From positions 1 to 64,000 of the forward strand of contig NZ_JAKZLC010000001.1 of the NCBI RefSeq assembly GCF_022808815.1: a DNA stretch of 64,000 bases. Direction: 5' to 3'. Position numbers and translations under genes: made by a program. The stretch's first letter is position 1. Every line of letters begins with the position of its first letter. Origin of the DNA: Geothrix paludis (GTDB taxonomy: Bacteria > Acidobacteriota > Holophagae > Holophagales > Holophagaceae). Positions 44,430 to 61,478 of the stretch are shown here, in pieces. Below the pieces are notes generated by a model that made no database searches, had not been told where the DNA came from, and saw only the letters and a list, made by a program, of their open reading frames with translations.

Positions 44430-45257
44430 TCACTGGAAGTAGGCGGCGTGAAGCGAGGGCACCAGGAAGGGAAAGATGAAGGCCGTGAGGATGGAGACCC
44501 CGAAACAGCCGATGGTGAGCCAGGCCGTGGACCGCGAGCCCAGGCGATAGAACAGCCGAAGGTGCAGCAAGGTGCCGAAGCAGAGCCAGGTCACGAGCGA
44601 CCAGGTCTCGATGGGATCCCAGCCCCAGTAGCGGCCCCAGGACTGATGGGCCCAGATGGCGCCCGCGATGATGGTGGTGGACCAGAACACGAAGCCGAAG
44701 CCCACGAAGCGGATCATGGAGGCATCCAGGACCTCCGCAGCGGGGAACCGCTCCAGGAAGCGGCTGGTGGCGCCCTTGAGCTTCCTCAGGAGGAGGACCG
44801 CCGCAGAGAAGGCCAGCAGGAAGGCGCCCACCGCCAGCTTGGTGAAGAAGATGTGGAAGATCAGCCAGGTGGAGCGCAGCGTGGGTGGGAGGTCGCGGGC
44901 CTCGGGGCTAGTGAGCAGGCCCAGGCCCACCATGAGGATCGCGACGGGGAGGACCACCAGGGCCAGCCCGGCCCAGCTGGGTCGCCGCCACAGCACGATG
45001 AGCAGCATGAGGATGGCGATCCAGGCGTTGGAGGACAGCACTTCGTACTTCAGCATGTAGGGGCCGTGGCCCACCTCGATCCAGCGGATGACGAGGGCCG
45101 CCCCGTGGGGCAGGAGGCCCAGGGCCGCGACCCCGCGAGCCCAGCGGACCCGCGCGGGGTGGTCCCAAAGCAGGGCGTGGGTGAAGAGGATGGCGGCCAG
45201 GGCGTAGACGCCCACGGCCGTCCAGTGGAGGAGGGTCTCCTGGAGGAAGGGGTTCAT
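44430..45257 (-). CDS. ccsA: System II cytochrome c biogenesis protein CcsA (ResC)
   Basis: 275 residues, about eight membrane helices. It contains the haem-handling tryptophan motif in AIWAHQSWGRYWGWDPIETWS (quoted in part: SWGRYWGWDPIETWS), between helices, plus flanking conserved His that ligate haem. With ResB it forms the haem export and attachment complex for c-type cytochromes. It overlaps the preceding lipoprotein gene by 4 bp (ATGA), in one operon with resB. Confidence 0.93.
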   Translation of the reverse strand: MNPFLQETLLHWTAVGVYALAAILFTHALLWDHPARVRWARGVAALGLLPHGAALVIRWIEVGHGPYMLKYEVLSSNAWIAILMLLIVLWRRPSWAGLALVVLPVAILMVGLGLLTSPEARDLPPTLRSTWLIFHIFFTKLAVGAFLLAFSAAVLLLRKLKGATSRFLERFPAAEVLDASMIRFVGFGFVFWSTTIIAGAIWAHQSWGRYWGWDPIETWSLVTWLCFGTLLHLRLFYRLGSRSTAWLTIGCFGVSILTAFIFPFLVPSLHAAYFQ

Positions 45258-45799
45258 GGCTTCGCCCCCTGCGGCGCGGGTGGGGTGATCATGCCGTGGG
45301 CATCCTTGGCGTCGATGGTCCAGGGAACTTCCTTCCGGCCCACTTTGGGCGGGGTGGTGAACCTGGTCTCCTCCACCAGCCAGGTGCCCTTGTGGTAGCT
45401 GAAGCGGTAGAGTATCTCGTAGTGGTCCACCGAGGCTTCACCTACCTGCCGGCCTGTGGCGGTCTGCACGTCCCGGTATCGCCACTGCTCCCGCGTGTAG
45501 ACCTGGAGGTCATCCCCGGCCTGCTCGACCTTCGTCACCTCCAGTTCTTCCAGGCGGGCATCCAGGGTGAGGCCCATGTCCATGCGCACGCCGATGAGGC
45601 CGAGGAGGCGCTTGCCATCCGGCGCGTCCGGTCCCACCACCTCGTCGATGAGACGGACATCGTTCTTCCGATAGGCCTCGCTCACCACCTGGTTGTAGCG
45701 GGTCACCAGCATCCTGGCCTCGCCGGAGGACACCCGCGAGCACCCGAGGGCCAGGGGAAGGGCCAGGACCGCCAAGGCAAGGAACATCCGCATGATCAC
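45254..45799 (-). CDS. small lipoprotein of the cytochrome maturation operon
   Basis: 181 residues. Lipobox ALPLALGC predicts lipid attachment. The mature part has a beta-rich fold resembling NTF2/Tim44-like domains (VTRYNQVVSEAYRKNDVRLI, YEILYRFSYHKGTWLVEETR). It sits between resB and ccsA with overlaps of 4 bp on both sides (GTGA and ATGA), so it is translationally coupled and probably a ResB/CcsA accessory. No known family is certain. GTG start at 45799 or ATG at 45793. Confidence 0.75.
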   Translation of the reverse strand: MIMRMFLALAVLALPLALGCSRVSSGEARMLVTRYNQVVSEAYRKNDVRLIDEVVGPDAPDGKRLLGLIGVRMDMGLTLDARLEELEVTKVEQAGDDLQVYTREQWRYRDVQTATGRQVGEASVDHYEILYRFSYHKGTWLVEETRFTTPPKVGRKEVPWTIDAKDAHGMITPPAPQGAKP

Positions 45800-47079
45800 A
45801 CCTCACCTCCATGGTCGCGCACTAGGCGCTCGAACCGCTCCCGGAACAGGGGGGCGAAGCGGTGGGGCCGCAGGGCCACCACCACCCTCTCGAACTCGCC
45901 TTCAGGCGTGACGGCCACCAGCTCGTCCACCCGCGTCACGCCGTAGGTGAGGGCCGCCCCCAGCAGGGCCAGGGCGAAGCCCAGGTAGGCCAGCCCGATG
46001 GCGGGGTCGTGGTTGCCGTGGAGCCGGGCCCAGTAGGGGAGGCCGTGCAGCTTCAGCGCGCCGCCCCCGGGCAGGGGCAGGCTCTCGCCGGGCCGCAGGG
46101 GGCCCTCCGCCAGGGTGGCGGGGCCGTCGAGGACGCGCACCTCCGCTAGGCCGGGGCGGCTGCCATCCCCGGGCATGGGCACCCGGATGCGGGCGCGCAG
46201 GTGACCCGGGCCCTGAGAGTAGGCTCCGAAGGCGACGGCCTCCTTCTTCTCCAGCAGGACGGCGGTCCGCTGGGGCGGCTCGGCGGGGAGACTCCATTCC
46301 ACCAGGGCCGCCGGGCCGTGCTGGTTGTCCGCGTAGAGGCGGCCCCGCGGCACGGGCAGGTCCTGGTTGATGCCCATCTCGCGCATCTGGTCCCCGTTCG
46401 ACGCCACCTCCGCCAGCTGCAGGCGGAGGGTCCGCAGATCGCCACCGCCGTAGCGCGTGCTCTCCACGGACACCAGGCGCAGGGGGGTGTCCAGGTGGAA
46501 GGGCGAGCCCAGGGGCCCGGGCCACTGGGCCCCCCAGGCCTCCACAGTGGGCGGGAGCACCTCCCCCTCGTAGAGGTCCACCACGGAGCTCACGCCGAAC
46601 ACGGCCTGGAGAGCGCCGGCGAGGATCACGCAGAGCAGGCCCAGGTGGAACAGGGGCGAGCCCGCCAGGCCCAGGCGGCCGCGGGTCCGCAGCGTCGTGG
46701 CAGCCCCCGAGGAGGGCCGCGTGAATTCCGCGCGGAAGGGGGCGCCGCGGAAGGCACCCTCCGTGGGGGTGAGTTTCCACTGGGCGGCCAGGCGGCGGAT
46801 CTGCTCGACCACCACGATGGACAGGGACACAGTGGCGAAGCCCAGCGCGACCAGGAAGAGCGGGCTGGTGAATACGTGGTCCAGGGCTAGGTGGTCGACT
46901 AGGGCGTTGACGAAGGCACCGTGGATCCGTAGATGCGCGGCCTTATCCGCGGGAGCCACGCCCGCCTGAGGCAGGGTCGCTCCCAGGCCGCCCAGCAGCG
47001 TGATGCAAAGCAACTCCCCGACGATGGTCGCCGGGGAGCGGAAGACGCGGCGCAACGTGTGTGTCCAGCTTTGGGTCAT
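45796..47079 (-). CDS. resB: System II cytochrome c biogenesis protein ResB
   Basis: About 427 residues. Four membrane helices (three near residues 20-40, 75-100 and 155-175 and one near 375-395) with a large periplasmic loop, characteristic of ResB/Ccs1; the second helix region reads LFLVALGFATVSLSIVVV. It brings apocytochrome and haem together with CcsA. The start is uncertain: ATG at 47079, or a GTG at 47115 overlapping the previous stop (GTGA). It is directly downstream of the 13-heme cytochrome gene. Confidence 0.85.
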   Translation of the reverse strand: MTQSWTHTLRRVFRSPATIVGELLCITLLGGLGATLPQAGVAPADKAAHLRIHGAFVNALVDHLALDHVFTSPLFLVALGFATVSLSIVVVEQIRRLAAQWKLTPTEGAFRGAPFRAEFTRPSSGAATTLRTRGRLGLAGSPLFHLGLLCVILAGALQAVFGVSSVVDLYEGEVLPPTVEAWGAQWPGPLGSPFHLDTPLRLVSVESTRYGGGDLRTLRLQLAEVASNGDQMREMGINQDLPVPRGRLYADNQHGPAALVEWSLPAEPPQRTAVLLEKKEAVAFGAYSQGPGHLRARIRVPMPGDGSRPGLAEVRVLDGPATLAEGPLRPGESLPLPGGGALKLHGLPYWARLHGNHDPAIGLAYLGFALALLGAALTYGVTRVDELVAVTPEGEFERVVVALRPHRFAPLFRERFERLVRDHGGEV

Positions 47080-47111
47080 GACAATCAAGCCGCCATGGTC
47101 GGTGGGTCGAG

Positions 47112-50100
47112 TCACCAAGGCTCGTTGGCCGCGGGTACGGCACTGTGTTGGCTATCGCAGGCCGCCTGGCAGTATTTATCTGTATAACTCGACATGGAGG
47201 AGGCCTTCTGGAATCCCTGGATCTGCATATTGTTCAGGTTGTTCTGATAGGCGTATCGGGTGGGCATATTGGTGCGATCGCCAATGAGCCGCGAGCGCAA
47301 GCTGCCGTGGGGGATGACCACATGGCAGTCATAGCAAGGGTAAGAGAGGTGGTGGCCCCCGTGGGGGTCGTTGGAGAAGGTGGTGTGGCAATTGGCACAC
47401 CAGCTGGTGGAGAAATTCTGGAGGGTCACATTCGGCCAGTTGGCGGAGTTGGCGCCTTTGAGCATGAACTGGTTGGCAGATCCGTGGGGGCCCTGGGCTG
47501 CGGCGCCATCCGTGTTGTGGCAATCCGAGCACATCATGGTCTGATTGCCCACGTTGGTGACCCAGGGCGAGCCTGAAAGCATCTGGGCCTGGACCAGGGC
47601 CTTGGGGGCGTAGCTCCCGGTGTAATTGTTCAGGCTGGCCACGACGGGATGACCGGAACGGTTATTGGGGTTGAACTCGCGGGCCACATCCGTCTCCTGG
47701 AAGAGGACGGGTGAGGCGAGGTTGAACCGGGCGATTGTGCTGGTCTGTCCGAAATTGGCGCTCAGGGTCAGGTGGGTGGCGTCGGTCACGGAAGAAATGG
47801 TGTAGGCCGTCCCGCCCACGGCCTGGATCTGCCCGCCCACAAGGGCGGATGTCCAGTTGGTGCCGTAGCCGACGACCGCGGTTTTGCCGTTGGAGAAGCT
47901 GGCGCCGGGGTGGATATAGAAGTCCTGGGGTGTCGTGGAGGTGGTGGCGGTGGTGATGGTGAGGCTGGTGGCCGATGAGGCCGTGATCTGGTAGGAATTG
48001 GTGTTGCCGGAGGTCATGGCGAAGAACTGGCCGACCAATCCAGTTCCAGGGGTGCTCCCCACCGGCCAAGTGGTGCCGTAGCCTGTGACGGTGGTTGTGC
48101 CCGTGATGGCAGCGGCGTCGCGGGTCTCGTAGGCCACGTAGGCCGTGGTGGTCTGGCCGTAGATGGCGGAAATGGTCAGGGACGTGGTGGTGGAGGCGGT
48201 GACTCGGTAGGTGTTCACGGTGCCGCCCACGGGGCGGACGTACTGGCCCGCCATGTTGGTCGTGGTCCAGTTCGTGCTGGTGCCGTTGACCGTCTGGCTG
48301 TTGTTGTTGAACTTCGCCGTGCCCACGCCCGCCACCCAGGGCTGGGTGCTGCCGCTGACCAGAGTCAGGGTGCTGGTGCCGCCGGAAGTGATGCCGTTCG
48401 GCGGTGTGCTGCCGAAGGAGTAGGCGGTGTGGCACTTGAAACACACCTCGTACTCGTAGGTGGCGGTCGGGGTGGCGGTGAAGTTGGAGGCGGTGGGGGA
48501 AACCCAGAGCGCCGGGTAGGGGCTGTACCGCACACCGTCGACGCCCATCAGCGGCCCGCTTTGGACCGTGGTGCCGTTCATGATCTGGTTGCGCGTGAGG
48601 GTAGCGGTGGTGGTGTAGGTGTGCGAGCCTGCCACGGCTTTGTGGGGATTGTGGCAGTCGGCGCACATGACGGTGCGTCCGCTGGTGCGCTCCACGGGGT
48701 GGTGGATGGGCTTGATAATCTCCTGCTGGATGTTGGGCACGACCTGGTTTCCGCCCGTGGTGTTGATCTGCCCATTGGCGTCGTGGCAGGCCAGGCAGAG
48801 GTCCGAAGGGTCGTCCACCAGCAGCTTGGCGTATTTGGCCGATGTGGTCCGGGCGTCTGGCCAGCCGTGGGGATCGTGGCAGTTCACGCAGGTGGCGCGC
48901 TTGGCCGCATCCGTTGAGTAGTTGAACGCGGGATAGGTGCTCAGGCTGGAGGCAGGGGTGGACGTGGAGGGCGTGACCCACTGGCCGCCGGGCCACAGCA
49001 CCCCCTTGGTGGGGTCGAAGTGGACGCCCTTGTTGGTGGCGACCTTGGCGTAGGTGTGGCAATCGTCGCAGAGGGGGTTGGTGCCGGCGGCGGCGCCCGT
49101 GGCCTCGGCCCGCAGCAGGTTCCCGTTAGCCACCGGGGCGCCATGAATGTCGTGGCAGGACTGGCATTCCACATTGGAGGTGACGCTGAGCTTGGTGATC
49201 CCGGTGATCGGGGATGTGGCCTTGTTGTAATCGGACGTGGCGGGCAGGGGAAGCGTGATCGGATGGCTGGTACCGCCCTTGGCCGTGACATTGCGGGGGG
49301 CGTGGCAGTCCACGCACATCTGATCTGAGGTGTTGGGCAGGCGCTGGAAGTGCCGGCCGGCGCTGCCGGGGCTGATTCCCGCGGCAGCGGGATCGAAGGG
49401 CGCGTTCGCCTGCAGGTGCTGGTCATGGCAGGTGGAGCACATGAGCTGGCCGTTCTGCATCCGGGTGCTCAGCGCCGTGTTTACCGGTCCCTGAAGGTCG
49501 GGCCGCGCGTAGATCAGGTAGAGGTCGCCGGCGATGAAGGAGGGGTTCGCGGAGCCGTTGACGAATGCCACGGAAATGCCAGTGCTGCCAAGAGCGACAG
49601 GGGCAGTCGAGGTGAAGGTGCCGGTGGTGGCGGTGCCCCAGGCGCTGGTCCCGTTGACCGTCATCTGCCAGTCGAATGTGGCGGCTCCGGCTTGGCCCGC
49701 GGCGTTGATCTTGATCTGGACGGTGGTCGGGTAGGCTCCCGTGTAGTCGCCGGACAGGACGAGGCTACCCGTGGACGTATTGGGGGAGCCCTTGATCACG
49801 CGGCCAGCGGCGCCGGAATCCCAGCGGTGGGACGTTCCGGTGGGCGCGGTCCCGGTCGGGAGGCCTCGCGGAGGCAGAGCCTGGTCAGTGGGGGCGAAGG
49901 TGTGAGTGGTGGCCACCCGGCCGCCGGTGACATGGCAGCTCAGGCACAGGTTCGCGTTGCCGGCCGTGTAGGTAAGCGTCCCGCCCAGAGCCCCATGGGT
50001 CATATGGCAAGGGGTGCAGTAGTTGAGCGCACCGTAGCTGTTCGCCATCGAGATGTTGTGTGGCGGGTCGATCGCCAGCAGGGCCACGCCGGTGATGGCC

Positions 50101-50147
50101 AGCAGGCTGAGCACAAGCGCGAGACGGGTAGCGCGGAGGCGGATCAC
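47112..50147 (-). CDS. 13-heme c-type cytochrome with beta-repeat insertion
   Basis: 1011 residues with a signal peptide (TRLALVLSLLAITGVALLAI). I count 13 CxxCH haem motifs: two near residues 44-75, seven more before residue 530, one near 570 (EVCFKCH) and three after 865 (MMCSDCH, WCANCH, PCYDCH). Residues about 580-865 contain no haem but carry at least three Thr/Gly-rich repeats of about 65 residues with GYGTxW and TSLTIT-type strands, a beta-helix or fibre-like region. The C-terminus CQAACDSQH is not a standard site. Probably an outer-membrane or extracellular electron carrier. The start overlaps the NHL gene (ATGA). Confidence 0.93.
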   Translation of the reverse strand: MIRLRATRLALVLSLLAITGVALLAIDPPHNISMANSYGALNYCTPCHMTHGALGGTLTYTAGNANLCLSCHVTGGRVATTHTFAPTDQALPPRGLPTGTAPTGTSHRWDSGAAGRVIKGSPNTSTGSLVLSGDYTGAYPTTVQIKINAAGQAGAATFDWQMTVNGTSAWGTATTGTFTSTAPVALGSTGISVAFVNGSANPSFIAGDLYLIYARPDLQGPVNTALSTRMQNGQLMCSTCHDQHLQANAPFDPAAAGISPGSAGRHFQRLPNTSDQMCVDCHAPRNVTAKGGTSHPITLPLPATSDYNKATSPITGITKLSVTSNVECQSCHDIHGAPVANGNLLRAEATGAAAGTNPLCDDCHTYAKVATNKGVHFDPTKGVLWPGGQWVTPSTSTPASSLSTYPAFNYSTDAAKRATCVNCHDPHGWPDARTTSAKYAKLLVDDPSDLCLACHDANGQINTTGGNQVVPNIQQEIIKPIHHPVERTSGRTVMCADCHNPHKAVAGSHTYTTTATLTRNQIMNGTTVQSGPLMGVDGVRYSPYPALWVSPTASNFTATPTATYEYEVCFKCHTAYSFGSTPPNGITSGGTSTLTLVSGSTQPWVAGVGTAKFNNNSQTVNGTSTNWTTTNMAGQYVRPVGGTVNTYRVTASTTTSLTISAIYGQTTTAYVAYETRDAAAITGTTTVTGYGTTWPVGSTPGTGLVGQFFAMTSGNTNSYQITASSATSLTITTATTSTTPQDFYIHPGASFSNGKTAVVGYGTNWTSALVGGQIQAVGGTAYTISSVTDATHLTLSANFGQTSTIARFNLASPVLFQETDVAREFNPNNRSGHPVVASLNNYTGSYAPKALVQAQMLSGSPWVTNVGNQTMMCSDCHNTDGAAAQGPHGSANQFMLKGANSANWPNVTLQNFSTSWCANCHTTFSNDPHGGHHLSYPCYDCHVVIPHGSLRSRLIGDRTNMPTRYAYQNNLNNMQIQGFQKASSMSSYTDKYCQAACDSQHSAVPAANEPW

Positions 50148-51505
50148 TGGACACTCCCTGTCAGGTTCACGATCGTCACATCGGCAATGTTTTCGAAGGT
50201 GCGGCCATCCGTCAGGCGGCCCGACAGCACCAGGAAGGCACTTCCGTCGGGCAAGGTGGCCAGCAGGCGGCGCTCGTCGAACCAGGCCCGGTATTCCAGG
50301 AATCCGTCGTGGTCGAAGTCCCCGATGAAGGCACCAGGGACGCGCGTGGCGGCCACCCCGTTGGCGGTGAGGGTGCCGCCTTGGATGGTGGAGGGATCCA
50401 CGCCGGGGATCTTGATGAGGACGGAGATCAGGGAGGGGCGCAGGGGACTGCCGGTGATCCCATCGCCCCGCTCCCGCCAGATTTCGGGGTTCCGGGCCAT
50501 GCCTCTGCGCGTGCGGGCCCGGTCCTCGGGGGCCTCGCGAACCAGCTGGGTGGGGTTCACGGTCAGAATGGCGGCAAGGATGTGAGGATCGGTGTAGGTG
50601 TCCAGTCCGTAGACTTCCACCCGCGTATTGCCTGGCGTGGCCACGAAGAGGCGGTTGTTGCGGTCGATTGCCAGGCTGGCGGGGCCCACGAGCTGGCCGG
50701 GATCCGAGCCGAAGCTCCCCAGGTTCCCCAGCTTCACCCCGGTGGCATCCACCACCACCACCACACCGCGGAAGGAATCCGCCAGGTAGATGCGGCCCTG
50801 ACCATCGGCCAGCAGGCCCTGCACACGGCCGAAGGTGCTGTTGGATCCAACCATGCCGACCAGACCGCCGAATTTGCGAAGGAAGATACCCTGGGCATCA
50901 AAAACCTGGATGCGGCCGTTGCCCTGGTCGGAGACGAAGATTTCACCGGAAGGCGCGATGGCGATGCCGGTGGGGAAGTTGAACTGGCCCGCCTGGATGC
51001 CGGGGGTGCCGAACTGACGCACCAGCTGGTTGCCGGGGCCGTAGACCTTCACCTGGTTGGCCTGGCTGTCCACCACGTAGACCAGGCCGTTCGGCGTGAT
51101 CTGGATGTGGTTGGGCATCTGGAACTCGCCGTCACCCTGGCCAAGGTACCCCGCGGGCACCCAGCCCGGCGTGAAGATGGAAACCCGCCCCTTGCCCGCC
51201 TCGCAGACAAAGATGCGGCCCGAGGGATCCACGGCGATGCCGAGAGGCTGGGCGAAGCCCCACTTGGCCCCGAGGAACCGGCCCGCCTCGTCGCGGACCG
51301 TGATCACTCCCAGACGGGGATCCGCCACGAAGAGCCGTCCGACTGAATCTGTGGTTAGACGCACGGGTTCGCGGAATCCTTTGTCATAGGAACGCAACGG
51401 GGTGGCGACGGGAAGCGTGGCCTGGGCCGCCAAGCCGAGGGCGGACAGGAAGGCGAGGGCCATGGACAGGGCCCAGCGTCGGCGAAGGATGAACCGGCCG
51501 GTCAT
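50144..51505 (-). CDS. exported NHL-repeat beta-propeller protein
   Basis: 453 residues. Signal peptide (WALSMALAFLSALGLAAQA). Residues about 35-320 contain about six NHL-type repeats, for example FNFPTGIAIAPSGEIFVSDQ and GNGRIQVFDAQGIFLRKFGG and PNHIQITPNGLVYVVDSQAN. The C-terminal 130 residues form a separate beta domain (about 325-453). NHL propellers are protein-interaction scaffolds and often sit in multihaem cytochrome clusters. It leads the leftward operon, with a 10-nt C-tract in its leader, and overlaps the 13-heme gene. Confidence 0.9.
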   Translation of the reverse strand: MTGRFILRRRWALSMALAFLSALGLAAQATLPVATPLRSYDKGFREPVRLTTDSVGRLFVADPRLGVITVRDEAGRFLGAKWGFAQPLGIAVDPSGRIFVCEAGKGRVSIFTPGWVPAGYLGQGDGEFQMPNHIQITPNGLVYVVDSQANQVKVYGPGNQLVRQFGTPGIQAGQFNFPTGIAIAPSGEIFVSDQGNGRIQVFDAQGIFLRKFGGLVGMVGSNSTFGRVQGLLADGQGRIYLADSFRGVVVVVDATGVKLGNLGSFGSDPGQLVGPASLAIDRNNRLFVATPGNTRVEVYGLDTYTDPHILAAILTVNPTQLVREAPEDRARTRRGMARNPEIWRERGDGITGSPLRPSLISVLIKIPGVDPSTIQGGTLTANGVAATRVPGAFIGDFDHDGFLEYRAWFDERRLLATLPDGSAFLVLSGRLTDGRTFENIADVTIVNLTGSVQ

Positions 51506-51652: not shown

Positions 51653-51814
51653 AAATCAGTCGTTTCTTGAAGGCCCCTAAGAAAAAAAAACCAGATGATC
51701 AAAATCACAAAAATAGATGACCCGTAGTTCGCTTATGGGCCCTATGGTTCGAGGGTCGGCTGACAGGTTCCTGTGACGTTGTCCGATGCAAGACATCCAC
51801 GAGGCCGAACCGCC

Positions 51815-52882
51815 ATGTCCAATCGTTCCATCCTGCTGTCCGTTGCCCTCGCATGTGCCGCGACCGCGACGGCGCCTCTGTCCGCGCAGAAGCCCGCCGC
51901 GCCTCCCGTGGCGCAGGACGAGGTGCTGGCCTGGCCCCCGCCGCCTGCTCCCGCCCGCATCAAGTGGGTGGCTGAGTACCGCAACGCCTTCGATGTGGGC
52001 GCCAAGAAGAAGCGCAGCTTCATCGACCGCCTGGCGGGCAAGTCCGAAGAGGTGATCTGGATCCAGCGCCCTCTCAGCGTGGCGGTGGATGGCCAGGGCG
52101 TGATCTTCGTGGGCGACTACAACCTGGGCGTCGTGGCCATGGATCCGGCGAACAAGAAGGTCTGGGCCTTCTCCGCCGTCAGTGGTGCGGTGCTGACCAC
52201 CCCCACGGGGCTGGCCGTGGATTCCAAGCTGGTCTACGCGGCCAGCGCCAACACGAGCCAAGTGGTGGTCTTCGACAAGGACGGGCGCCAGCTCGGCGTC
52301 CTGGGCAAGGCCGATGGCATCAAGCGCCCCGTCGGGCTGGCGGTGGATGAGTCCCGGAACCTGCTCGTGGTGGTGAACGGAGACGAGCATGCCGTGCGCC
52401 TCTACTCGCGATCGCTGAACCTGATCAAGACCATCGGCGGCCGGGGCAGCGAGGAGGGCCAGTTCAACTTCCCCACCTACGTGTGCATGGTGCCCGGCGT
52501 GGGATTCGCGGTGGTGGATTCGGGCAACTTCCGTGTCCAGCTCTTCGACTTCAACGGGAGGTTCCTCCGGGCTTTCGGCAAGGTGGGCGACATGGCAGGC
52601 CAGTTCGCGCGGCCCAAGGGCATCGCGGTGGATCCCGAGGGCCACCTTTACGTGGCGGACGCAGCTTTCAACAACTTCCAGATCTTCGATCAGGAGGGCC
52701 GCGTCCTCACCTTCGTGGGCCAAGGTGGTGCGCGCAAGGGCCAGTTCCAGGTTCCCACTGGCCTCTCCATCGACGCCAACGGCGGCATCTACGTGGCCGA
52801 TCAAATCAACGGACGCATCCAGAAATTCCAATATTTGCGGGAGGAAAAGGAGGCACCTGCCCCCGGACCGACCCCGCAATAA
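51815..52882 (+). CDS. exported NHL-repeat beta-propeller protein (second)
   Basis: 355 residues with signal peptide (LLSVALACAATATAPLSA). A six-bladed NHL propeller spans about 75-345, e.g. ARPKGIAVDPEGHLYVADAA, FNFPTYVCMVPGVGFAVVDS and QVPTGLSIDANGGIYVADQI. The C-terminus is a short Glu/Pro tail. It heads the rightward operon (NHL, tetraheme cytochrome, barrel, octaheme cytochrome, parvulin). Probably a periplasmic or surface scaffold for the cytochromes. A homologue heads the divergent operon. Confidence 0.9.
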   Translation: MSNRSILLSVALACAATATAPLSAQKPAAPPVAQDEVLAWPPPPAPARIKWVAEYRNAFDVGAKKKRSFIDRLAGKSEEVIWIQRPLSVAVDGQGVIFVGDYNLGVVAMDPANKKVWAFSAVSGAVLTTPTGLAVDSKLVYAASANTSQVVVFDKDGRQLGVLGKADGIKRPVGLAVDESRNLLVVVNGDEHAVRLYSRSLNLIKTIGGRGSEEGQFNFPTYVCMVPGVGFAVVDSGNFRVQLFDFNGRFLRAFGKVGDMAGQFARPKGIAVDPEGHLYVADAAFNNFQIFDQEGRVLTFVGQGGARKGQFQVPTGLSIDANGGIYVADQINGRIQKFQYLREEKEAPAPGPTPQ

Positions 52883-52910
52883 GCAGCACCTTGCTGTTTC
52901 TCCCCACCCA

Positions 52911-52920
52911 CCCCCCCCCC
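52911..52920 (+). repeat. C10 tract in the leader of the tetraheme cytochrome gene
   Basis: Ten C, within a longer C-rich run, ending 20 nt before the tetraheme start codon and just upstream of the GAGGTGA ribosome site. Confidence 0.85.
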
Positions 52921-52939
52921 ACCACCCACGAGGTGAACC

Positions 52940-53593
52940 ATGAAATCCCTTCTCGTCGTCCTGCTGGCCGCCGGCTCCCTGAGCCTGTCCGCCGCGGGCA
53001 TCACCGGCACCAAGCATGACCTGAGCACCAACGCCCTTGCCGGCCAGGCGCACACGAACACCACCCAGGTCTGCGTGTTCTGCCACGCCCCCCACAATGC
53101 CGCTTCGAGCACGGCCCAGCTCGTGCCTCTGTGGAACCGGAAGTTCCAGGGCGCCACCCCGTCCTTCACCCTCTACAGCAGCGCGACCCTGACCTCCACG
53201 CCCACCCAGCCCACCGGAGCCAGCCTGGCCTGCTTCACCTGCCATGACGGCACGACCTCCGTGGGCAACCTCATCAACATCCCCTCTGACGTCGCTTCCA
53301 TCTCCTACACGGCCGGTGGCAATGTCAATGCGAGCGGCGTGCTGGGCGGGGCCGCGGCTCTCGGCACGGACCTGAGCAACGACCACCCCGTGTCCATGAC
53401 CTACCCGACCAAGACCGGCCTGGTGGTCCCCACCGTGGCGGGCTCGACCTCTAATGTCGGCGGCCTTCCCCTCTTCAGCAGCAAGGTCGAGTGCGCCAGC
53501 TGCCACGACGTGCACAGCAATGCGGTCGCCGCGCCCTTCCTGCGCGCGTCCATGACCAATTCCGCGCTCTGCACCACCTGCCACATCAAGTAG
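52940..53593 (+). CDS. tetraheme c-type cytochrome, OmcE-like (candidate nanowire subunit)
   Basis: 217 residues. Signal peptide (KSLLVVLLAAGSLSLSAAG). Four CxxCH sites at residues about 45-49 (CVFCH), 98-102 (CFTCH), 185-189 (CASCH) and 211-215 (CTTCH). Extra histidines suitable as distal ligands are TKHDL (26), APHN (52), NDHP (149) and DVHS (192), giving bis-His coordination. The size, heme count and motifs (VCVFCHAPHN, SLACFTCHDG, NDHPVS) resemble OmcE of Geobacter sulfurreducens, which polymerises into extracellular cytochrome filaments. Filament formation here is inferred. It follows the NHL gene and precedes the outer-membrane barrel. Confidence 0.9.
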   Translation: MKSLLVVLLAAGSLSLSAAGITGTKHDLSTNALAGQAHTNTTQVCVFCHAPHNAASSTAQLVPLWNRKFQGATPSFTLYSSATLTSTPTQPTGASLACFTCHDGTTSVGNLINIPSDVASISYTAGGNVNASGVLGGAAALGTDLSNDHPVSMTYPTKTGLVVPTVAGSTSNVGGLPLFSSKVECASCHDVHSNAVAAPFLRASMTNSALCTTCHIK

Positions 53594-53677
53594 TCCAGGC
53601 ACTGCGACACGCATGATGCGCGGGGGGTGGTTCCACCCGCCCCCCGCTTTTTCGACCTCCTTTTCCGAAGGTCTGCC

Positions 53678-55456
53678 GTGAGGCTTGGAACATTCACGCT
53701 GCTTCTCGCGGGCGCGGCCATCGCCGGGCGGGCGGAGGACTGCCCTCTGGTGCTGAACCAGCGGTTCCAGCTCCGCTACAACCAATGGCAATCCAGCCAG
53801 ATGTCCAGCACTTCCACCACCCAGGCCATCTACGAGGTGGATGCGGGCATCCCCATCTTCACGTATCGCCTGGGCGCCCTGGCTCTGAACGGGGCGGTGG
53901 AATACAACCGCCTGGCCTACAGCAATGAGTCGGGAGCCGATCTGGGACTGAACCGGTACGGGGCCCGCGTCAGCCTGTTCCCCTATCGTCCGTTCCGCCT
54001 CTATCTGGACTACCAGCACACCCAGTCCCCGGATCTGCTGGGCTCTGGATCGCTGAAGGGCGAAACCTGGGGCGGGGGGATTCGTTACGCCAACCGATTC
54101 CTCGGCGATACCTTCCTCACTTATCGCCATGGCGACGCCAGGCTGGAGGGAGGAGCCACGCCGGGGGCCTATCGGGATGAATGGGCCCAGTGGAAACTGG
54201 AGACCCACCACCGCCTTCAACAGACTCAGATCGATTTCGAGGCTCTCCGCCAGGACTACCGACCGCTCGACACGCCGGCCTGGAGATTCATCACCCTGCA
54301 TCTGGACACGGACACTCTTCTTGCCCGGGACTGGAAGCTTCGCACCCGATCCCAGGCACAGGATTCCGGACTCAGCCGCTGGTCCGATTTCAACGCTTCG
54401 TTCTACGGCCCCATCAGTGGCGCCTGGCACTCCTTGACCAGCGCGTCCATCGGGTCTTCGACCCAGGACAAGGTCCACACGACCACCAGCTTCACGTCGG
54501 AATCCCTGGTGTACGAAGTCCGAAAATGGCATGCCCACCTTACGGGAAGCTACAGCGGGAACGACACGCCGGCCGAATTCCGGAGTGAACGCACGAGCGC
54601 GCTTCTCGTGGGCGGGTCCTACGCCGTGAGTCCCGAATGGAGGCTCCATGGAGACGCGGGACTGTCGTACTTCCAGCAGTCCCTCGTAACCGACGACAAT
54701 GCCAAGCGTTTCACGTCCCTGAACCTGGGTGTCGCCCGAGGGGGAGATGTGCCGGAGCTGATCCGCCACAGCCTCTTTTTCCTCAGCGATTGGCGCTTCG
54801 ATCAGAGGGTGCGCGAGGAATATCCGCCGGATTTCGTGCCGACTGAGTTGGCTCAGGAGATGCTCAGGCGGCGGATGCGCCAGACCGGGTCCTTCGCATT
54901 CACTGCGGACGTGTGGCGCATGAGCGACAGTGGAACAGGCGGGACGTTGGATTGGGCCAGGATCACGGGGCAGGTGCTAACCAGGAGTGACCTGTCCGTG
55001 TACCTGATGGGGGATTTCAAGCACGACAAGGGTCTCGCCCGACCCGGCTTGGAGCTTCGCAACAGCGATTTCCTGGTGAACGGCTCGTATCGGCTGGGAC
55101 TCACCACATTGACCGCATCCATGGGATACAGCGATGACCGCGAGAGCCAGGCCGTGGCCTCGACGTGGAGTCCGGCGCCTGCCCTGGGGAATCAGAGCGG
55201 CCTTAGCCGGCGCTACACCGCGGGCGCCACGACCCGGCTCTGGAAGGTTCCGGTCGGCGTGCTGATCCTTCGGTACGATGCCTCCATGGTTCCCGCCACA
55301 ACCACCGTGTCCACATGGGCCGACTTGAGCTTCCGCCAGGTCTCCCTGCGTGTCCGGTACCAGACTTCACGCACGGATGGCGGCCTCCGCAACGACAGCA
55401 TCAATGTGGATCTGCTGCGTTGGTTCGACGCGATCTGCATAAGGAACTGGCGATGA
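53678..55456 (+). CDS. outer-membrane beta-barrel of a porin-cytochrome system
   Basis: 592 residues. The GTG at 53678 gives a clean signal peptide (LGTFTLLLAGAAIAGRA); an earlier start is unlikely. The mature protein is rich in alternating strands with aromatic girdles, for example YRLGALALNGAVEYNRLAY and RPFRLYLDYQHTQSP, and ends in a short strand-like WFDAICIRNWR. It is the size of MtrB/OmbB-type barrels that hold periplasmic and extracellular cytochromes together, but no N-terminal CxxC is visible. Its stop overlaps the octaheme start (ATGA at 55453), so a stoichiometric partner is likely. Confidence 0.85.
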   Translation: MRLGTFTLLLAGAAIAGRAEDCPLVLNQRFQLRYNQWQSSQMSSTSTTQAIYEVDAGIPIFTYRLGALALNGAVEYNRLAYSNESGADLGLNRYGARVSLFPYRPFRLYLDYQHTQSPDLLGSGSLKGETWGGGIRYANRFLGDTFLTYRHGDARLEGGATPGAYRDEWAQWKLETHHRLQQTQIDFEALRQDYRPLDTPAWRFITLHLDTDTLLARDWKLRTRSQAQDSGLSRWSDFNASFYGPISGAWHSLTSASIGSSTQDKVHTTTSFTSESLVYEVRKWHAHLTGSYSGNDTPAEFRSERTSALLVGGSYAVSPEWRLHGDAGLSYFQQSLVTDDNAKRFTSLNLGVARGGDVPELIRHSLFFLSDWRFDQRVREEYPPDFVPTELAQEMLRRRMRQTGSFAFTADVWRMSDSGTGGTLDWARITGQVLTRSDLSVYLMGDFKHDKGLARPGLELRNSDFLVNGSYRLGLTTLTASMGYSDDRESQAVASTWSPAPALGNQSGLSRRYTAGATTRLWKVPVGVLILRYDASMVPATTTVSTWADLSFRQVSLRVRYQTSRTDGGLRNDSINVDLLRWFDAICIRNWR

Positions 55457-56679
55457 GACATCGGCCGTCGTTCAGACTGTTCCGAGGCCTTGCCGTCGGT
55501 TTGGCGATGGGTCTGGCGATGAATCCGGGGTTCGCCCAGGTCGGGTCCACAGGTGTCGCTTCGGCCAAGGCGCCAACCCGGAGTGGGATCTCGTTGGTTC
55601 ATGGGGCCTGCCTGACCTGCCACAAAAATCATCGCGGGAGCGGGCGCACCAGCCAGAAGCCGGCTCGCGAGGCGACAGACCAGCTGTGCCTGTCCTGCCA
55701 TGAGGGGACGAACACCGCTCCCAGCGAGGGATTCGCCCCCAAGCTCTCGAGCTGGAGCGGCCAGGGCTCCGGTCACACGAAGGAACGGTTCAGTTCCCGC
55801 CGGCCCGGTACCTACGTCCGTTCGGTCCAGGTCAATCCATCCAGGCAGATTCGCCTGACTCAGGATTGCTCCGGTTGCCACGATCCCCATGGGAAGGAAC
55901 GCGGCAAACTCCGCAACACAGCCTTCGATGACCGTGGCCGATTGCTGGACCGTCATCCTCAGTCCACGGCCGACATCTGCTTCGGATGTCATGCCGGTCC
56001 GGAGGCGGCACCCCTCACATCCGGCAACGCCGACATCGGTCAGCTGTTTGGAAAGGGTGCTCCTTCCTCCCACGGCATTGGAGCCACCGCCGCGAGCCAT
56101 CCGGAACTGCCCAGTTTGCGCGCATCAGCCTTCCAGGGGCGGCTGGACTGCACCTCCTGCCATGACAATCCCGATCCGACGGGTGCCCGGGGGCCGCACT
56201 TTTCGATCAATGCCGCCCTCCTGAAGGCTTCCTTTGGCCATGAGAAGGACATGGGGCGCCTGGGAGAACGCGCCAACGACCTCTGCCATCTCTGCCATGA
56301 CCGGCAGTCCATCCTCGCCAACCAATCTTTCCCCTTCCACGCCCAGCACCTGAGTGGGTTCACCAACAGCGGCTCAATGGCCGCTCAGCGACAGGTGCCG
56401 ACTCTCTCCGAGGCGGCGGCGGTGCTGGGGCTGCGCTCACCGAAGGACCTCCGTCCCGGGCGGAGCGGCGCCTTCCAGCCGGGCTACGGCGAGCCGACCG
56501 CCTGCGCCACCTGCCATGCCTCCCATGGTTCCCTGCGGCAGGCAGCCCTCATCGAGTTCGACCGCTCTGTGGTGACTGCTTCTTCGGTCGGCGGGCCGTC
56601 CTTCCAGCGGTCGGGCCTCGGCCACGGCACCTGCACCCTGAGCTGCCACGGCTACGACCACGTGCAGACGCGCTATTGA
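55453..56679 (+). CDS. octaheme c-type cytochrome, probable partner of the barrel
   Basis: 408 residues. Signal peptide (LAVGLAMGLAMNPGFAQ). Seven standard haem sites: CLTCH, CLSCH, CSGCH, CFGCH, CTSCH, CHLCH and CATCH, plus one CX3CH site near the C-terminus (CTLSCHGYDH), giving eight haems if the latter is used. The overlap with the barrel gene suggests a periplasmic cytochrome inserted in or docked to it, by analogy with OmaB/MtrA. It precedes the parvulin gene. Confidence 0.9.
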   Translation: MRHRPSFRLFRGLAVGLAMGLAMNPGFAQVGSTGVASAKAPTRSGISLVHGACLTCHKNHRGSGRTSQKPAREATDQLCLSCHEGTNTAPSEGFAPKLSSWSGQGSGHTKERFSSRRPGTYVRSVQVNPSRQIRLTQDCSGCHDPHGKERGKLRNTAFDDRGRLLDRHPQSTADICFGCHAGPEAAPLTSGNADIGQLFGKGAPSSHGIGATAASHPELPSLRASAFQGRLDCTSCHDNPDPTGARGPHFSINAALLKASFGHEKDMGRLGERANDLCHLCHDRQSILANQSFPFHAQHLSGFTNSGSMAAQRQVPTLSEAAAVLGLRSPKDLRPGRSGAFQPGYGEPTACATCHASHGSLRQAALIEFDRSVVTASSVGGPSFQRSGLGHGTCTLSCHGYDHVQTRY

Positions 56680-56715: not shown

Positions 56716-58272
56716 ATGCATGACGCCCCCTCGTTGCAGAATGGCTTCACCCGGATCCAGATGGCGATCCTGGTGGGCGCGCTCGGGCTGGGTCCTGCCG
56801 TGACGGCGGCGCCCGCCCTGCGTTCGATCCGCACAGTCGATGCCGAGGCGGAACACCTGAAGGCGATCCGGGCGGCGGAGCCGGGCCTATCCGCCGAGGC
56901 CGCGAGAGCCAGGCTCGCCCGGCTGGAGAAGGCCTGGGCGCTGGCTGGGACCAGAGGGCTCCTGAAGGCGCCAGAGTGGCAGGAACGCCGTCAGGAGGGT
57001 CGCCTTGCCGTGCTGGGGAGGGCCTTCCTCGACTCCCGGCCGGGTCATGCCGGCATGACCGAGGCGCAGGTCAAGGCCGCCTTCCTGGCCCAGGGGGAAG
57101 AACGTCACGTGTCGCACCTCCTGTGCAAGACCCGGGAGGAGGCCGAGGCGGCCCTGAAGCGCATCCAGGCAGGAGAGCCCTTCGAGAAGGTGGCCGCCGA
57201 GGTTTCCGTGGATCCCAGCGCGGCCCAGAACAAGGGCGACCTGGGCTGGATCCGGCAGAAGCAGCTGGTGCCTGCCTTCGGCAGTCCCGTGTTCGCTGCT
57301 CCCGTGGGCGCGCCGGTGGGCCCCATTCAAAGCGAGTTCGGCTGGCATGTCGCCAAGGCCTGGGAAGCCCGGCGTGAGACGGAGGTGGACTTCGCCGCGC
57401 AGCGGGAAACCCTGCTGAAGGAGGCGGCGGCCGCCCAGACGAAGATGAAGCGGCAGGCGGCCCTGGACGCGCTGCGTCCCCGGTATCCACTGGTTCCCGA
57501 CCTGGCCGTGCTGGGCGCGGACCGCACCACGGAGATCCTGCCGGGCGATGAGCGCAAGGTGGCGGGCCGGGTGGCCGGGACGACCATCAGCCTGCGGCGG
57601 CTCAAGCGGCATCTGGTCGAGGTGCTCAGGACCATGGGCCAGAGTCATTCGCTGGGTGCCGCCACGAAGGCTGAGTTCATGGAGGGCGTGGCGGACCAGA
57701 TCCGTCTCGCCGCCGCGGCCAGGAAGCAGGGGCTCGACCGGAAGCCCGGGGTTCAGGCCGCCCTCTGGCTGGACGAGCGGGAGCGCGCGTACTCCCGCTA
57801 CGCCGAATCCTACCTCGCCGAAGCCCAGGTGCCCGAGGTCAACCTGGCGGAGCACCACGAGGCTTTCCCGGACCGCTTCCGGCAGGTGGGCGCCTTGCGC
57901 CTGCAGGTGCTGGTGGCCGATTCCAAGGACGAAGCGGACGCGGCCCTGAATGAGGTGCGGACGGGTCTGCCCTGGCGAGAGGCCGTGGCGCGGCACGCCG
58001 ACGCGGAGGCCACGGGCAACCCCGAACCCGGCTGGGTGGAGGTGGCCTCACTCCAAACGCTGGTGCCCCCCACGCTCATGCAGGCTCTCCTGGCAGGACC
58101 CCTGGGCCAACCGGTGGGCCCCATGCTGGGCCCGGATGGCTTCATGATCTTCAATGCCCTGGAGCGGCGTTCCGGTCCCGTGATGCCGCTGGACGAATGC
58201 CGCGAGGCCGTGCGGGCGGACTACCTCAAGGCGCACGGCCCCGACCTGGTGGAGCGCAGCCTGGGCGACTAA
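56716..58272 (+). CDS. double-parvulin peptidyl-prolyl isomerase (foldase)
   Basis: 518 residues. A hydrophobic N-terminus (QMAILVGALGLGPAVTA) suggests export. Two parvulin (PpiC) domains: one at about 125-225 (RHVSHLLCKTREEAEAALKR, GDLGWIRQKQLVPAFGSPVF) and one near 390-490 (LRLQVLVADSKDEADAALNE, EPGWVEVASLQTLVPPTLMQ), with a helical chaperone-like part between. PpiC-type isomerases are encoded beside cytochromes in Geobacter cytochrome clusters and may fold the haem proteins or filament subunits. It is the last gene before a terminator. Confidence 0.88.
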   Translation: MHDAPSLQNGFTRIQMAILVGALGLGPAVTAAPALRSIRTVDAEAEHLKAIRAAEPGLSAEAARARLARLEKAWALAGTRGLLKAPEWQERRQEGRLAVLGRAFLDSRPGHAGMTEAQVKAAFLAQGEERHVSHLLCKTREEAEAALKRIQAGEPFEKVAAEVSVDPSAAQNKGDLGWIRQKQLVPAFGSPVFAAPVGAPVGPIQSEFGWHVAKAWEARRETEVDFAAQRETLLKEAAAAQTKMKRQAALDALRPRYPLVPDLAVLGADRTTEILPGDERKVAGRVAGTTISLRRLKRHLVEVLRTMGQSHSLGAATKAEFMEGVADQIRLAAAARKQGLDRKPGVQAALWLDERERAYSRYAESYLAEAQVPEVNLAEHHEAFPDRFRQVGALRLQVLVADSKDEADAALNEVRTGLPWREAVARHADAEATGNPEPGWVEVASLQTLVPPTLMQALLAGPLGQPVGPMLGPDGFMIFNALERRSGPVMPLDECREAVRADYLKAHGPDLVERSLGD

Positions 58273-58353: not shown

Positions 58354-61300
58354 CTAGGTGTGGCAGGCGTCGCAGCCGGAGACGGCCAGCAGCTTCGGGC
58401 TCTTGGAGAAGTGGGGCTGGTGGCAGGAGAGGCAGGTGAGGGGCTTGCCGGTGGCCTTGACAGTGCGGCCTGAGGTCGGATGGTTGGCCACCGGGTGGCC
58501 AGCCTTCTTGTCCTTGTGGCAGTTCAGGCAGAGGGTCTGGACCTCGCCGCGGGGGAAGCCCTTGGCGTCGCCGCCGTGGGCTGTGTGGCAGGTGGCGCAG
58601 AGGCCGTCCATTACGGGCTTGTGCTTCGAGACCGCCTTGTTGGCTTCGTCCCGCAGGCCGTCGTGGCACTGGAGGCAAAGGTCCTTGGGGTTGCCGGCCA
58701 GGAGGGAGGGCCGGGTGGAGGCGTGGGGCGTATGGCAGGCGGTGCACTCGCCGTTGGCCACCGGGGGATGGGGGAAGGCCTTCTTGGCGGCCGTGGCCAC
58801 GCCGTCATGGCAGTTGAAGCAGAGGCCAGGCATGGCTTCGTTGGTCGCGAAGGGCTTGGGCGCGGCGCTGTCCGCATGGCAGGTGCTGCAGTCGCCCGCG
58901 GCCACCGGCGGGTGGGCGGTGGCCTTGAGCATGCCGTCGTTGTTCGAGCCGTGAGGGTCGTGGCAGGTGGCGCAGTCCTTGGCGGACACGGGGTAGCCCT
59001 TGTGGGCCTTCTTCAGGTCCCCGGCGTCGTGGCAGCTGACGCACAGCTCCTCCATGGGCTGGAGGAGGCCCTTGGCCAGCTTGCCCGTGTGGACGGCGTG
59101 GCAGCTGAGGCACTCGCCGGAGGCGGCGGGCTGGTGGGCGTGCTTCGACTTCACCGCCGCGGCGATGGAGGTGTGGCATCCCAGGCACAGGTCCAGGGGC
59201 TTCTGGCGAAGCAGGTGCTGGGCCTCGGTCTGGTGGGGCGCGTGGCAGTCTCGACAGCTGCTGTCCAGATAGGGCTTGTGCCCCCAGCCGCCCTTGGGCG
59301 CCTCGGCCTTCTCGTGGCAGGTGAGGCAGACCTGGCTGCCGGGCTTCTCCAGCAGGGCTTCGGTCTTGGAGGCGTGGGGACGGTGGCAGGACAGGCACTC
59401 GCCGCCCTTGAAGGGCTGGTGCTGGGTGGCGCCGGCCTTGGGCTCCAGGTCCGCGTGGCAGGTGCGGCAGAGCTGGGGCACGGGCTGGTCCAGGCGGGGC
59501 GTGCCCGCCGGGAGCTTGGCGCCGGGGGCCGGGGAGGCATGGCAGTTGGCGCAGTTCTCCAGGAAGGGCGGGTGGGCGCCCTTGAGGATCAGGCCCTTCT
59601 TCGTCGAAGTGTGAGGCTCGTGGCAGCCCAGGCAGTCCACCTTCGCCAGCGAGCTGGTGAGGTGCTTGCGGCCCAGGGCTTCGTCCGCAAGGTCATGGCA
59701 GGTCGCGCAGGTCTCCTGGATCCGGGGGGAGGCTAGCAGGGCCAGCCCGTCGCCGGAGTGGGGGCTGTGGCAGCTGCTGCACTGGCCGTCGTTCACGGGG
59801 GAGTGCACGACCTGGAACTTGTCCTTGCGGGTGTGGCAGGTGTAGCAGCCTTCGGGCTGGTCCCGCTTCAGGAACTTGGCCTGATCGCCGCCGTGTGGAT
59901 CGTGGCAGGCGAGGCAGCCGCGCTTTCCGGTGGCGGGCTGGTGTTTCACATCGCCCTTCATCAGGCCGGCATGGCAGGCGGTGCAGAGCTTGTCGGTGTC
60001 GTCCTTCACGAGCTTCGCGAGCGCGCCGCCGTGGGGTGTGTGGCAGGCGCTGCACTGGCCGTTCTTCACAGGAGCGTGGAGCACCTTGCGCTTCACGATC
60101 TTCTCGTGGCAGGCGCCGCATGCGGCCAGCTCGCCGCCTTTGATGAGCTTGGCGGAAGCTGAGGCGTGGGGCGTGTGGCAGGCGAGGCACTGGCCCTTCT
60201 TCGCCGGGGCATGGAGGACCTCACCCTTCGCCACGCCGGTGTGGCAGGTGGCGCAGAGCGTCTCGCCGGCCTGCTTGAGAACCGGGGGGGTGGCGGTGGC
60301 GTGGGCCCCGTGGCAGACGAGGCAGTCACCCTGGGCGGCCGGCGCGTGCTGGCTCTTGCCCTTGACGAGGTCCTCGTGGCAGGTGAGGCACAGCTGCTTC
60401 GCGGGCGCGGTGAGGAGGGCCTTTTCCTTCGAGTCGTGGGGCCGGTGGCAGTCCATGCAGGCGCCATCCCGGAAGGGTGGATGCAGGGACTTCCCCTTGG
60501 CGAGGTCCGTGTGGCAGCCGGCGCACAGCTCTTGGGGCGGGGCCGTGAGGAGGCCCTTGGCGTCCCCGGCATGGGGCCGGTGGCAGGTGAGACACTTCCC
60601 ATCCTTCGCCGGCTGGTGCTGCACGCCGGGGCCGGGCAGGGGGCCGTGGCAGTCGAGGCACAGCTCTGTTACGGGCTTCGCCAGCTTCACGGCACCGCCG
60701 GCGGCGGGCGCATGGCAGTCGGCGCAGGAACCCGGCGCGAAAGGGGCGTGCTGACGGTCGCGCAGGAGGCCCTTGGCCGCGCCGCCGTGGGGGTTGTGGC
60801 AGGTGGCGCAGGCCTCCGCCTTCAGTGGGAAGCCACCGTGGGTCTTCGAGAGGCCGGCCACGTCGTGGCAGGTATCGCACTGACCCGGGACGCCCGCCTT
60901 GAGGAGGCTGCGCGTGGCCGAGGGATGGGGCTGGTGGCAGGCCAGGCAGTCGTCCGTGGCCGGATGGGGATGGGCCGACGTGGTGCGGGTCTTGATGTCG
61001 GCGTGGCAGGAGAGGCACAGTTCCTGGGTGTCCTTCCGGAGCAGGCGCTTCCGTCCCGTGTCGTGGGCGCCGTGGCAGGCGCCGCACTCGCCCTTGGATT
61101 CGAAGCGGTGCGCTGGGCGCTCATTGGCGGTCTGCTTGAACCCCTTGTGGCAGATGGCACAGAGCGCCCGGCCCCCGCCCTCGTGGAGGAGGTTGACGTT
61201 CGCCGCGCCGTGGGGCTTGTGGCACCACTGGCACTTCCCGTCGAGCAGGGGCTTGTGGGCCGTGGTGGGAGAGGCGGCCTGACGGACCTTGGGATGGCAA

Positions 61301-61398
61301 TCCTGGCAGGTTCGGGGCGTGTCCGCGGCCCGGCAGGGTACGAGGCCTGCCAGCAGGGCGAGCAGAAGGAAAGCGAGGGTCCGGCGTGGAGGGGTCAT
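58354..61398 (-). CDS. 42-heme c-type cytochrome
   Basis: 1014 residues, exported (RTLAFLLLALLAGLVPCRA). I count 42 CxxCH haem sites, one per 24 residues, evenly spread from CQDCH near residue 32 to the last CDACH close to the C-terminus. About every second site is followed by a PH or AH (CxxCHxPH, as in CQWCHKPH, CLTCHRPH, CSACHTPH), so nearly each haem has a nearby His partner. The core of the protein is built from a repeating pair of sites spaced by charged, Lys-rich linkers, indicating tandem duplication of a two-haem unit. No other domain is visible. Start at 61398, since the signal peptide begins there; the frame is open farther upstream. Probably periplasmic or surface, a long electron conduit. 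Confidence 0.95.
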   Translation of the reverse strand: MTPPRRTLAFLLLALLAGLVPCRAADTPRTCQDCHPKVRQAASPTTAHKPLLDGKCQWCHKPHGAANVNLLHEGGGRALCAICHKGFKQTANERPAHRFESKGECGACHGAHDTGRKRLLRKDTQELCLSCHADIKTRTTSAHPHPATDDCLACHQPHPSATRSLLKAGVPGQCDTCHDVAGLSKTHGGFPLKAEACATCHNPHGGAAKGLLRDRQHAPFAPGSCADCHAPAAGGAVKLAKPVTELCLDCHGPLPGPGVQHQPAKDGKCLTCHRPHAGDAKGLLTAPPQELCAGCHTDLAKGKSLHPPFRDGACMDCHRPHDSKEKALLTAPAKQLCLTCHEDLVKGKSQHAPAAQGDCLVCHGAHATATPPVLKQAGETLCATCHTGVAKGEVLHAPAKKGQCLACHTPHASASAKLIKGGELAACGACHEKIVKRKVLHAPVKNGQCSACHTPHGGALAKLVKDDTDKLCTACHAGLMKGDVKHQPATGKRGCLACHDPHGGDQAKFLKRDQPEGCYTCHTRKDKFQVVHSPVNDGQCSSCHSPHSGDGLALLASPRIQETCATCHDLADEALGRKHLTSSLAKVDCLGCHEPHTSTKKGLILKGAHPPFLENCANCHASPAPGAKLPAGTPRLDQPVPQLCRTCHADLEPKAGATQHQPFKGGECLSCHRPHASKTEALLEKPGSQVCLTCHEKAEAPKGGWGHKPYLDSSCRDCHAPHQTEAQHLLRQKPLDLCLGCHTSIAAAVKSKHAHQPAASGECLSCHAVHTGKLAKGLLQPMEELCVSCHDAGDLKKAHKGYPVSAKDCATCHDPHGSNNDGMLKATAHPPVAAGDCSTCHADSAAPKPFATNEAMPGLCFNCHDGVATAAKKAFPHPPVANGECTACHTPHASTRPSLLAGNPKDLCLQCHDGLRDEANKAVSKHKPVMDGLCATCHTAHGGDAKGFPRGEVQTLCLNCHKDKKAGHPVANHPTSGRTVKATGKPLTCLSCHQPHFSKSPKLLAVSGCDACHT

Positions 61399-61429
61399 GG
61401 CGTCGGCGGTCTCAGATGAGGAGCCCAGT

Positions 61430-61437
61430 GGGGGGGG
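61430..61437 (-). repeat. C8 tract in the leader of the 42-heme gene
   Basis: Eight G on the plus strand (C8 sense), 32 nt before the start codon, the same spacing as in the leftward NHL gene. Confidence 0.8.
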
Positions 61438-61450
61438 ATGGGCATACCTC

Positions 61451-61478
61451 ATCTTAGAGTCATCTTTGTGCTGTCCAA
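61451..61478 (-). promoter_or_regulatory. possible promoter of the 42-heme gene
   Basis: On the minus strand TTGGAC, 16 bp and TAAGAT resemble -35 and -10 elements. A start about 45 nt before the codon would place the C8 tract in the leader. Weak match. Confidence 0.3.

Follow-up and report, generated by a model that had tools for sequence, protein, structure and literature searches.

Among solved structures, the closest relative of the protein considered here is OmcE of Geobacter sulfurreducens, a tetraheme c-type cytochrome known as a filament (PDB 7TFS), in which one heme receives its His ligand from the adjacent subunit, according to two papers (PMC9473688, PMC12307469). The second of these, a 2025 review, describes OmcE homologues across bacteria and archaea and states nanowire anchoring and the electron entry point as open (PMC12307469), and another paper treats the physiological role of cytochrome filaments as disputed (PMC11077965). 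In Geoalkalibacter, two NHL proteins are reported next to a homologue of OmcE (PMC12016550). The OmcS and OmcZ filaments work by a stacked heme chain in a homopolymer, a principle that the protein described below would share. A second solved relative, PDB 9yuq, is a putative multiheme cytochrome c with 16 chains of one sequence; no papers on 9YUQ were found in the literature searched. Also relevant are the porin-cytochrome conduits of the MtrCAB, OmbB, ExtABCD, and OetABI types, in which a barrel gene is followed directly by a multiheme cytochrome gene.

The locus that we compare with these systems lies in a window of 64,000 nucleotides, the whole stretch of DNA analyzed, from the 3.4 Mb genome of Geothrix paludis (Acidobacteriota, Holophagaceae). 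Five genes follow one another on its forward strand with gaps of 57, 33, −4, and 36 bases. The first (51818–52882) encodes an NHL-repeat beta-propeller protein (Pfam NHL, 7.8e-27), the second (52940–53593) an OmcE-family tetraheme c-type cytochrome recognized by translation, homology, and predicted fold, the third (53627–55456) a 609-aa outer-membrane beta-barrel candidate (family alignment A5), the fourth (55453–56679) an octaheme c-type cytochrome with seven CxxCH and one CxxxCH (CTLSCH), and the fifth (56716–58272) a 518-aa PpiC/parvulin-type peptidyl-prolyl isomerase (Pfam Rotamase, 5e-18). The octaheme gene overlaps the stop of the barrel gene by 4 bases, the two adjoining as in the known conduits. 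Unlike in those conduits, the extracellular partner here would be an OmcE-type wire subunit, and neither protein matches a solved conduit by sequence: searches of the PDB returned nothing useful for the octaheme or the barrel (best E for the barrel 0.61), NCBIfam gave no match to the barrel, and Porin_4 matched it only below the curated cut-off (E 2e-4). For the barrel candidate, an alternative GTG start at 53678 suits a signal peptide better, as judged by eye. An earlier note on this DNA had named NHL, barrel, and parvulin genes as neighbours; all three exist, the barrel as a candidate, and the octaheme gene between barrel and PpiC was absent from that note.

Several further genes for multiheme cytochromes and their assembly lie on the reverse strand. 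Divergent from the five genes are a second NHL-repeat protein (50144–51496; Pfam NHL, 2e-25; taken as 450 aa, the longest ORF reaching 51631) and a 1011-aa cytochrome with 13 CxxCH (47112–50147), a pair that is kept across Geothrix loci. Beyond them are a ResB-like cytochrome c biogenesis protein (45796–47118; Pfam ResB, 5e-16) and a CcsA-like cytochrome c assembly protein (44430–45257; Pfam Cytochrom_C_asm, 2.7e-33). On the other side, and convergent with the PpiC gene, is a 1032-aa cytochrome with 42 CxxCH (58354–61452).

Translation of 52940–53593 gives a precursor of 217 residues followed by a stop, and it bears out the reading frame, the four CxxCH (residues 45, 98, 185, and 211), and the motifs VCVFCHAPHN and NDHPVS that had been read there. 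All eight Cys (8/8) belong to these four motifs, and a chance origin of the CxxCH set is rejected since two or more CxxCH were reached in only 9 of 200,000 shuffles of the residues. By eye, the N-terminus resembles a Sec-type signal peptide, so the protein is putatively secreted. An antisense open frame (51677–54769, reverse strand) runs across the same region; long antisense frames commonly arise where coding DNA is rich in G+C, and the cytochrome reading is preferred because homologues back it. The earlier note had counted four extra His. There are five outside the CxxCH motifs (residues 26, 38, 52, 149, and 192), and four of them, all except H38, are conserved. In one alignment of OmcE-like proteins (A1, 39 rows), every row keeps all four CxxCH together with H26, H52, H149, and H192 (39/39); in a larger one (A2, 92 rows), H26, H149, H192, and hemes 1–3 are present in 92/92, H52 in 85/92, and heme 4 in 91/92, with one gap. 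OmcE (7tfs) carries His at the same four positions in the phmmer alignment. Since four hemes need four distal His and four are conserved, the protein fits bis-His ligation, and one of these ligands may, as in OmcE, come from across a subunit interface.

The likeness to OmcE that the earlier note had proposed is upheld both by sequence and by predicted fold. A phmmer search of PDB sequences returned 7tfs_A (OmcE; E 2.6e-36) and 9yuq_N (E 1.8e-27, full length and with the same ligand pattern), the next match having an E of 0.71. The profile search against OmcE that had been suggested as a check gave 2.6e-58 for 7tfs and 6.9e-50 for 9yuq with the A1 profile; the same profile matched OmcS (6.4e-6) and 6r2q (7.7e-6) over approximately one paired-CxxCH stretch only, and OmcZ was not among the matches. 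Hits in Pfam and NCBIfam were either below cut-off or to generic families with doubled CxxCH. An AlphaFold model from 39 sequences was poor (pLDDT 49); the AlphaFold2 model built from the 92-row A2 has a mean pLDDT of 84.4 and a pTM of 0.77. Foldseek matched this model to one PDB entry, 7tfs (E 2.2e-10, TM 0.67/0.72), where the absence of other folds is itself no evidence, and VIA-align gave a Z of 14.7 with an rmsd of 2.9 over 179 residues; the OmcE fold is thus a match of a predicted model. Structural alignments with 7tfs show 39–41% identity.

Despite sharing with OmcE four hemes, the positions of the distal His, the predicted fold, and a C-terminal CHxK, the window protein belongs to a separate clade. 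In a tree of 90 rows built from four-heme domains, with the five-heme rows of A2 excluded, it falls within a set of 25 rows from Holophagaceae and Aminicenantes (SH-aLRT 99), and G. sulfurreducens OmcE within one of 20 rows from Desulfuromonadia (SH-aLRT 100); it does not group with the Geobacter OmcE clade, and the intervening forks are mostly weak. 9yuq is placed elsewhere in the tree, also with weak support. As judged from sequence, the protein belongs to the OmcE family without being an orthologue of OmcE, and a recent transfer of its gene from Geobacter is not apparent.

The C-terminus, CTTCHIK, extends two residues beyond the last heme His. Exactly this tail length is found in 143 of 145 distinct single-domain relatives, 134 of those 143 ending in Lys, compared with 5/35 other multiheme ORFs from the same loci. 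The relatives are not independent, so the numbers are a sign of constraint on the C-terminus rather than a statistic; such constraint is what one would expect if the C-terminus were placed in a filament interface. It speaks against the alternative that the protein is an electron carrier, secreted or periplasmic, that stays monomeric and merely shares the OmcE fold, as do its co-inheritance with the barrel, described below, and the sequence searches: the earlier note had regarded a better alignment to monomeric tetraheme cytochromes as damaging to its proposal, and neither phmmer nor the A1 profile found a solved monomeric tetraheme family in the PDB that aligned better than OmcE. The polymeric state would nevertheless be carried over from relatives, and the family is not uniform, 30 of the 145 single-domain relatives having a fifth CxxCH. 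On balance we regard a monomeric carrier as distinctly improbable and a polymerizing subunit as the better description.

OmcE-like relatives are widespread, occurring in 65 loci of GTDB genomes from many phyla; of the genomes searched, 54/396 sampled from the phylum and 17/93 from the class carry one. Of those 93 genomes, 77 belong to the window's family, and 13 of these 77 were positive with the OmcE profile, as were 10/47 of its genus. The earlier suggestion that this gene would extend the OmcE type into the lineage is accordingly weaker than stated, the more so as the review mentioned above (PMC12307469) already describes a broad distribution. No report of OmcE in Geothrix was found in the literature searched; an earlier description may exist. 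The closest named relative is from Geothrix fuzhouensis SG12 (87%), followed by Geothrix sp. SG200 and G. fermentans DSM 14018. Tandem or duplicated OmcE genes are seen in L040:9310-10666, L035:19245-19958, L037:15564-16577, and L038:18824-19537, and a second paralogue clade of Holophagaceae is present in several genomes and absent from that of the window. Where a fifth CxxCH occurs, as in L044, L046, L049, L057, L063, and other loci, it sits between hemes 2 and 3; these relatives could be either wire subunits with an extra heme or a branch of the family.

Within the family the barrel and OmcE travel together. The barrel was found in 12 of 13 OmcE-bearing genomes and in none of the 64 others (Fisher p 3.5e-13, kinship ignored), and the one OmcE-bearing genome lacking it is 72% complete. 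The 42-heme protein is distributed in nearly the same way, in 13 of 93 genomes of the class (all 13 among the 77 of the family), comprising 12 with the OmcE cassette and one that is 76% complete. The OmcE locus is gained or lost as a block and behaves as an accessory island in the family. Linkage to NHL genes reaches further: an NHL ORF lies on the same strand at a distance of up to 1.2 kb for 51/67 OmcE-like ORFs (those flanked on either side by 2.6 kb or more) vs. 80/480 other ORFs of at least 250 aa in the same loci. An NHL gene adjoins OmcE in all eight Geobacter-type loci (L201–L208), in one of which (L201) genes for a triheme c7, ResB, CcsA, and ten- and eight-CxxCH proteins precede the NHL-OmcE pair; we take this to be, in G. 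sulfurreducens, the ppcA-omcE region (GSU0612-0618). Among 277 genomes searched, none with an identical OmcE was found. By BLAST, no homologue of the window barrel or PpiC protein was found in these eight loci, so that the earlier claim that NHL, barrel, and parvulin genes tend to accompany nanowire genes stands for NHL and not for the other two. The barrel, octaheme, and PpiC genes behind the window's OmcE-type gene set it apart from the Geobacter-type arrangement.

Gene order NHL-OmcE-barrel-octaheme-PpiC is conserved in five Geothrix loci (L035–L039), in L040 with two tandem OmcE genes, in L211, in L209, which probably is the same genome as L040 and has the identical arrangement, and in L058 from Aminicenantes. 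In L210 the order is likewise kept, with an extra OmcE gene on the opposite strand between octaheme and PpiC. Two loci (L041 and L212) keep OmcE and PpiC with no barrel or octaheme at that spot, a barrel copy being found elsewhere in their genomes.

A terminator-like hairpin (53620–53647, forward strand) begins 26 bases past the OmcE stop codon, with an 11-bp, G+C-rich stem followed by T5; the alternative barrel start would fall behind it. Our initial terminator scan found three sites vs. 3.1 expected, and because this count gives no excess, it is the strength and conservation of the hairpin that speak for it. A scripted rule (seven or more pairs, T in 5/8) was met 3′ of OmcE in 8/13 stretches vs. 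1/26 stretches that follow an NHL, barrel, or octaheme gene. The rule missed L039, L040 (both stretches), L211, and L212; folding shows a hairpin in all of these except the gap between the two OmcE copies of L040, the thirteenth stretch. Read by eye from folding, 12/12 cassette-type loci have a strong hairpin of approximately 10–19 bp behind their last OmcE gene, and seven Holophagaceae loci share a nearly identical stem. The hairpin could act by terminating the majority of transcripts or by protecting them, and in both cases OmcE would exceed conduit, or it may simply separate two operons. The latter would suit a reading in which NHL-OmcE and barrel-octaheme-PpiC are two independent transcription units that share one accessory electron-transfer block; L041 and L212, where the first set stands with neither barrel nor octaheme at that place, and the similar distribution of the 42-heme gene point the same way. 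We nonetheless consider this reading highly improbable, given the gene order conserved in L035–L040, L210, L211, and the Aminicenantes locus L058, and given natural proteins in which the two sets are physically joined, to which we now turn in support of a single wire-and-conduit system.

These proteins are fusions of approximately 550–706 aa, with an N-terminal OmcE-like tetraheme domain and an octaheme domain; the whole protein contains 10–11 CxxCH, mostly together with a CxxxCH. Across all loci, 22 distinct ORFs pass the domain rule; they occur in L016, L050, L051, L055, L060, L062, L069, and others, covering six named phyla. We compared an alignment of window-type octahemes (A3, 10 rows) with one of the fusion C-terminal domain (A4, 8 rows; 14 of the 22 fusions were not used to build it). 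hhalign gave a probability of 100 and an E of 1e-41 over 301 columns, which take in the terminal CxxxCH and the last Tyr, vs. 6.8e-9 to 2.3e-15 for control alignments of 13-, 10-, 8-, and 42-heme proteins against A3. A4 itself matches the 13-heme alignment better (4e-31, 155 columns) and so has wider kin. From these alignments, the window octaheme and the C-terminal half of the OmcE::octaheme fusions are homologues. In L048, L050, L051, L060, and L069, an ORF of 644–694 aa is located 5′ of the NHL-fusion pair; the window barrel is not clearly homologous to such ORFs near the fusions (640–694 aa; hhalign probability 77, 15% identity). No report of an OmcE-octaheme fusion was found in the literature searched; an earlier description may exist.

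The natural fusions are, in our view, an argument for contact between the octaheme and the OmcE domain. The fusions could also be taken to mean that the OmcE-type protein does not polymerize and forms, one per complex, the outer face of a porin-cytochrome complex on an octaheme in its barrel: a 1:1 ratio is fixed in the 22 fused proteins, and OmcE is tightly linked to barrel and octaheme. However, a separate OmcE-like ORF is present in 10/10 fusion loci long enough to judge (the other 12 being short stretches), L040 has two tandem OmcE copies, the hairpin behind the last OmcE gene points to unequal expression, and of the two solved relatives one (7tfs) is a filament and the other (9yuq) an entry with 16 chains. 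A single outer subunit therefore seems to us unlikely.

The reading that we favour, and consider reasonably probable, is an exported OmcE-type subunit that polymerizes and is fed by a barrel-octaheme conduit. The tetraheme protein would leave the cell and polymerize end to end, forming an insulated extracellular wire of hemes; the outer-membrane conduit of beta-barrel and octaheme would pass electrons to this wire, which would start where the outer end of the octaheme meets the end of an OmcE subunit. The NHL and PpiC proteins might help surface attachment or folding, and CcsA and ResB would attach hemes. Because the OmcE genes are separate and followed by the hairpin, many subunits per base would be expected, the hairpin letting subunits outnumber bases. 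The solved relatives favour a wire. Several observations count against it: the position of the protein outside the Geobacter OmcE clade, the two loci without a conduit at that spot, the weakly supported assignment of the barrel as a porin, the Geobacter-type OmcE loci without a homologue of this barrel, the poor AlphaFold model from 39 sequences, the dispute over what cytochrome filaments do physiologically (PMC11077965), and the description of G. fermentans as a user of soluble electron shuttles (PMC4923279). The proposed structure is of a known kind, an OmcE-type wire, from which it differs in clade and in the conduit cassette.

More tentatively, locus and fusions together might show how such wires are anchored, a proposal that we would sooner doubt than assert. 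The octaheme in the barrel would be the base; in many phyla a fused first subunit (4 + 8 hemes), its C-terminal end blocked, could only start wires, and in Holophagaceae and Aminicenantes separate genes would serve, with their ratio set by the hairpin.

What is new here is the locus itself, with NHL, OmcE, outer-membrane-barrel candidate, octaheme, and PpiC genes in succession. If the fusions and the split Geothrix cassette do correspond to the wire base, the anchoring question becomes testable in a cultured organism, as G. fermentans DSM 14018 carries the cassette (L037), and also by structure prediction of one polypeptide. Furthermore, if the wire reading is true, Geothrix, described as dependent on shuttles, would gain a direct wire route.
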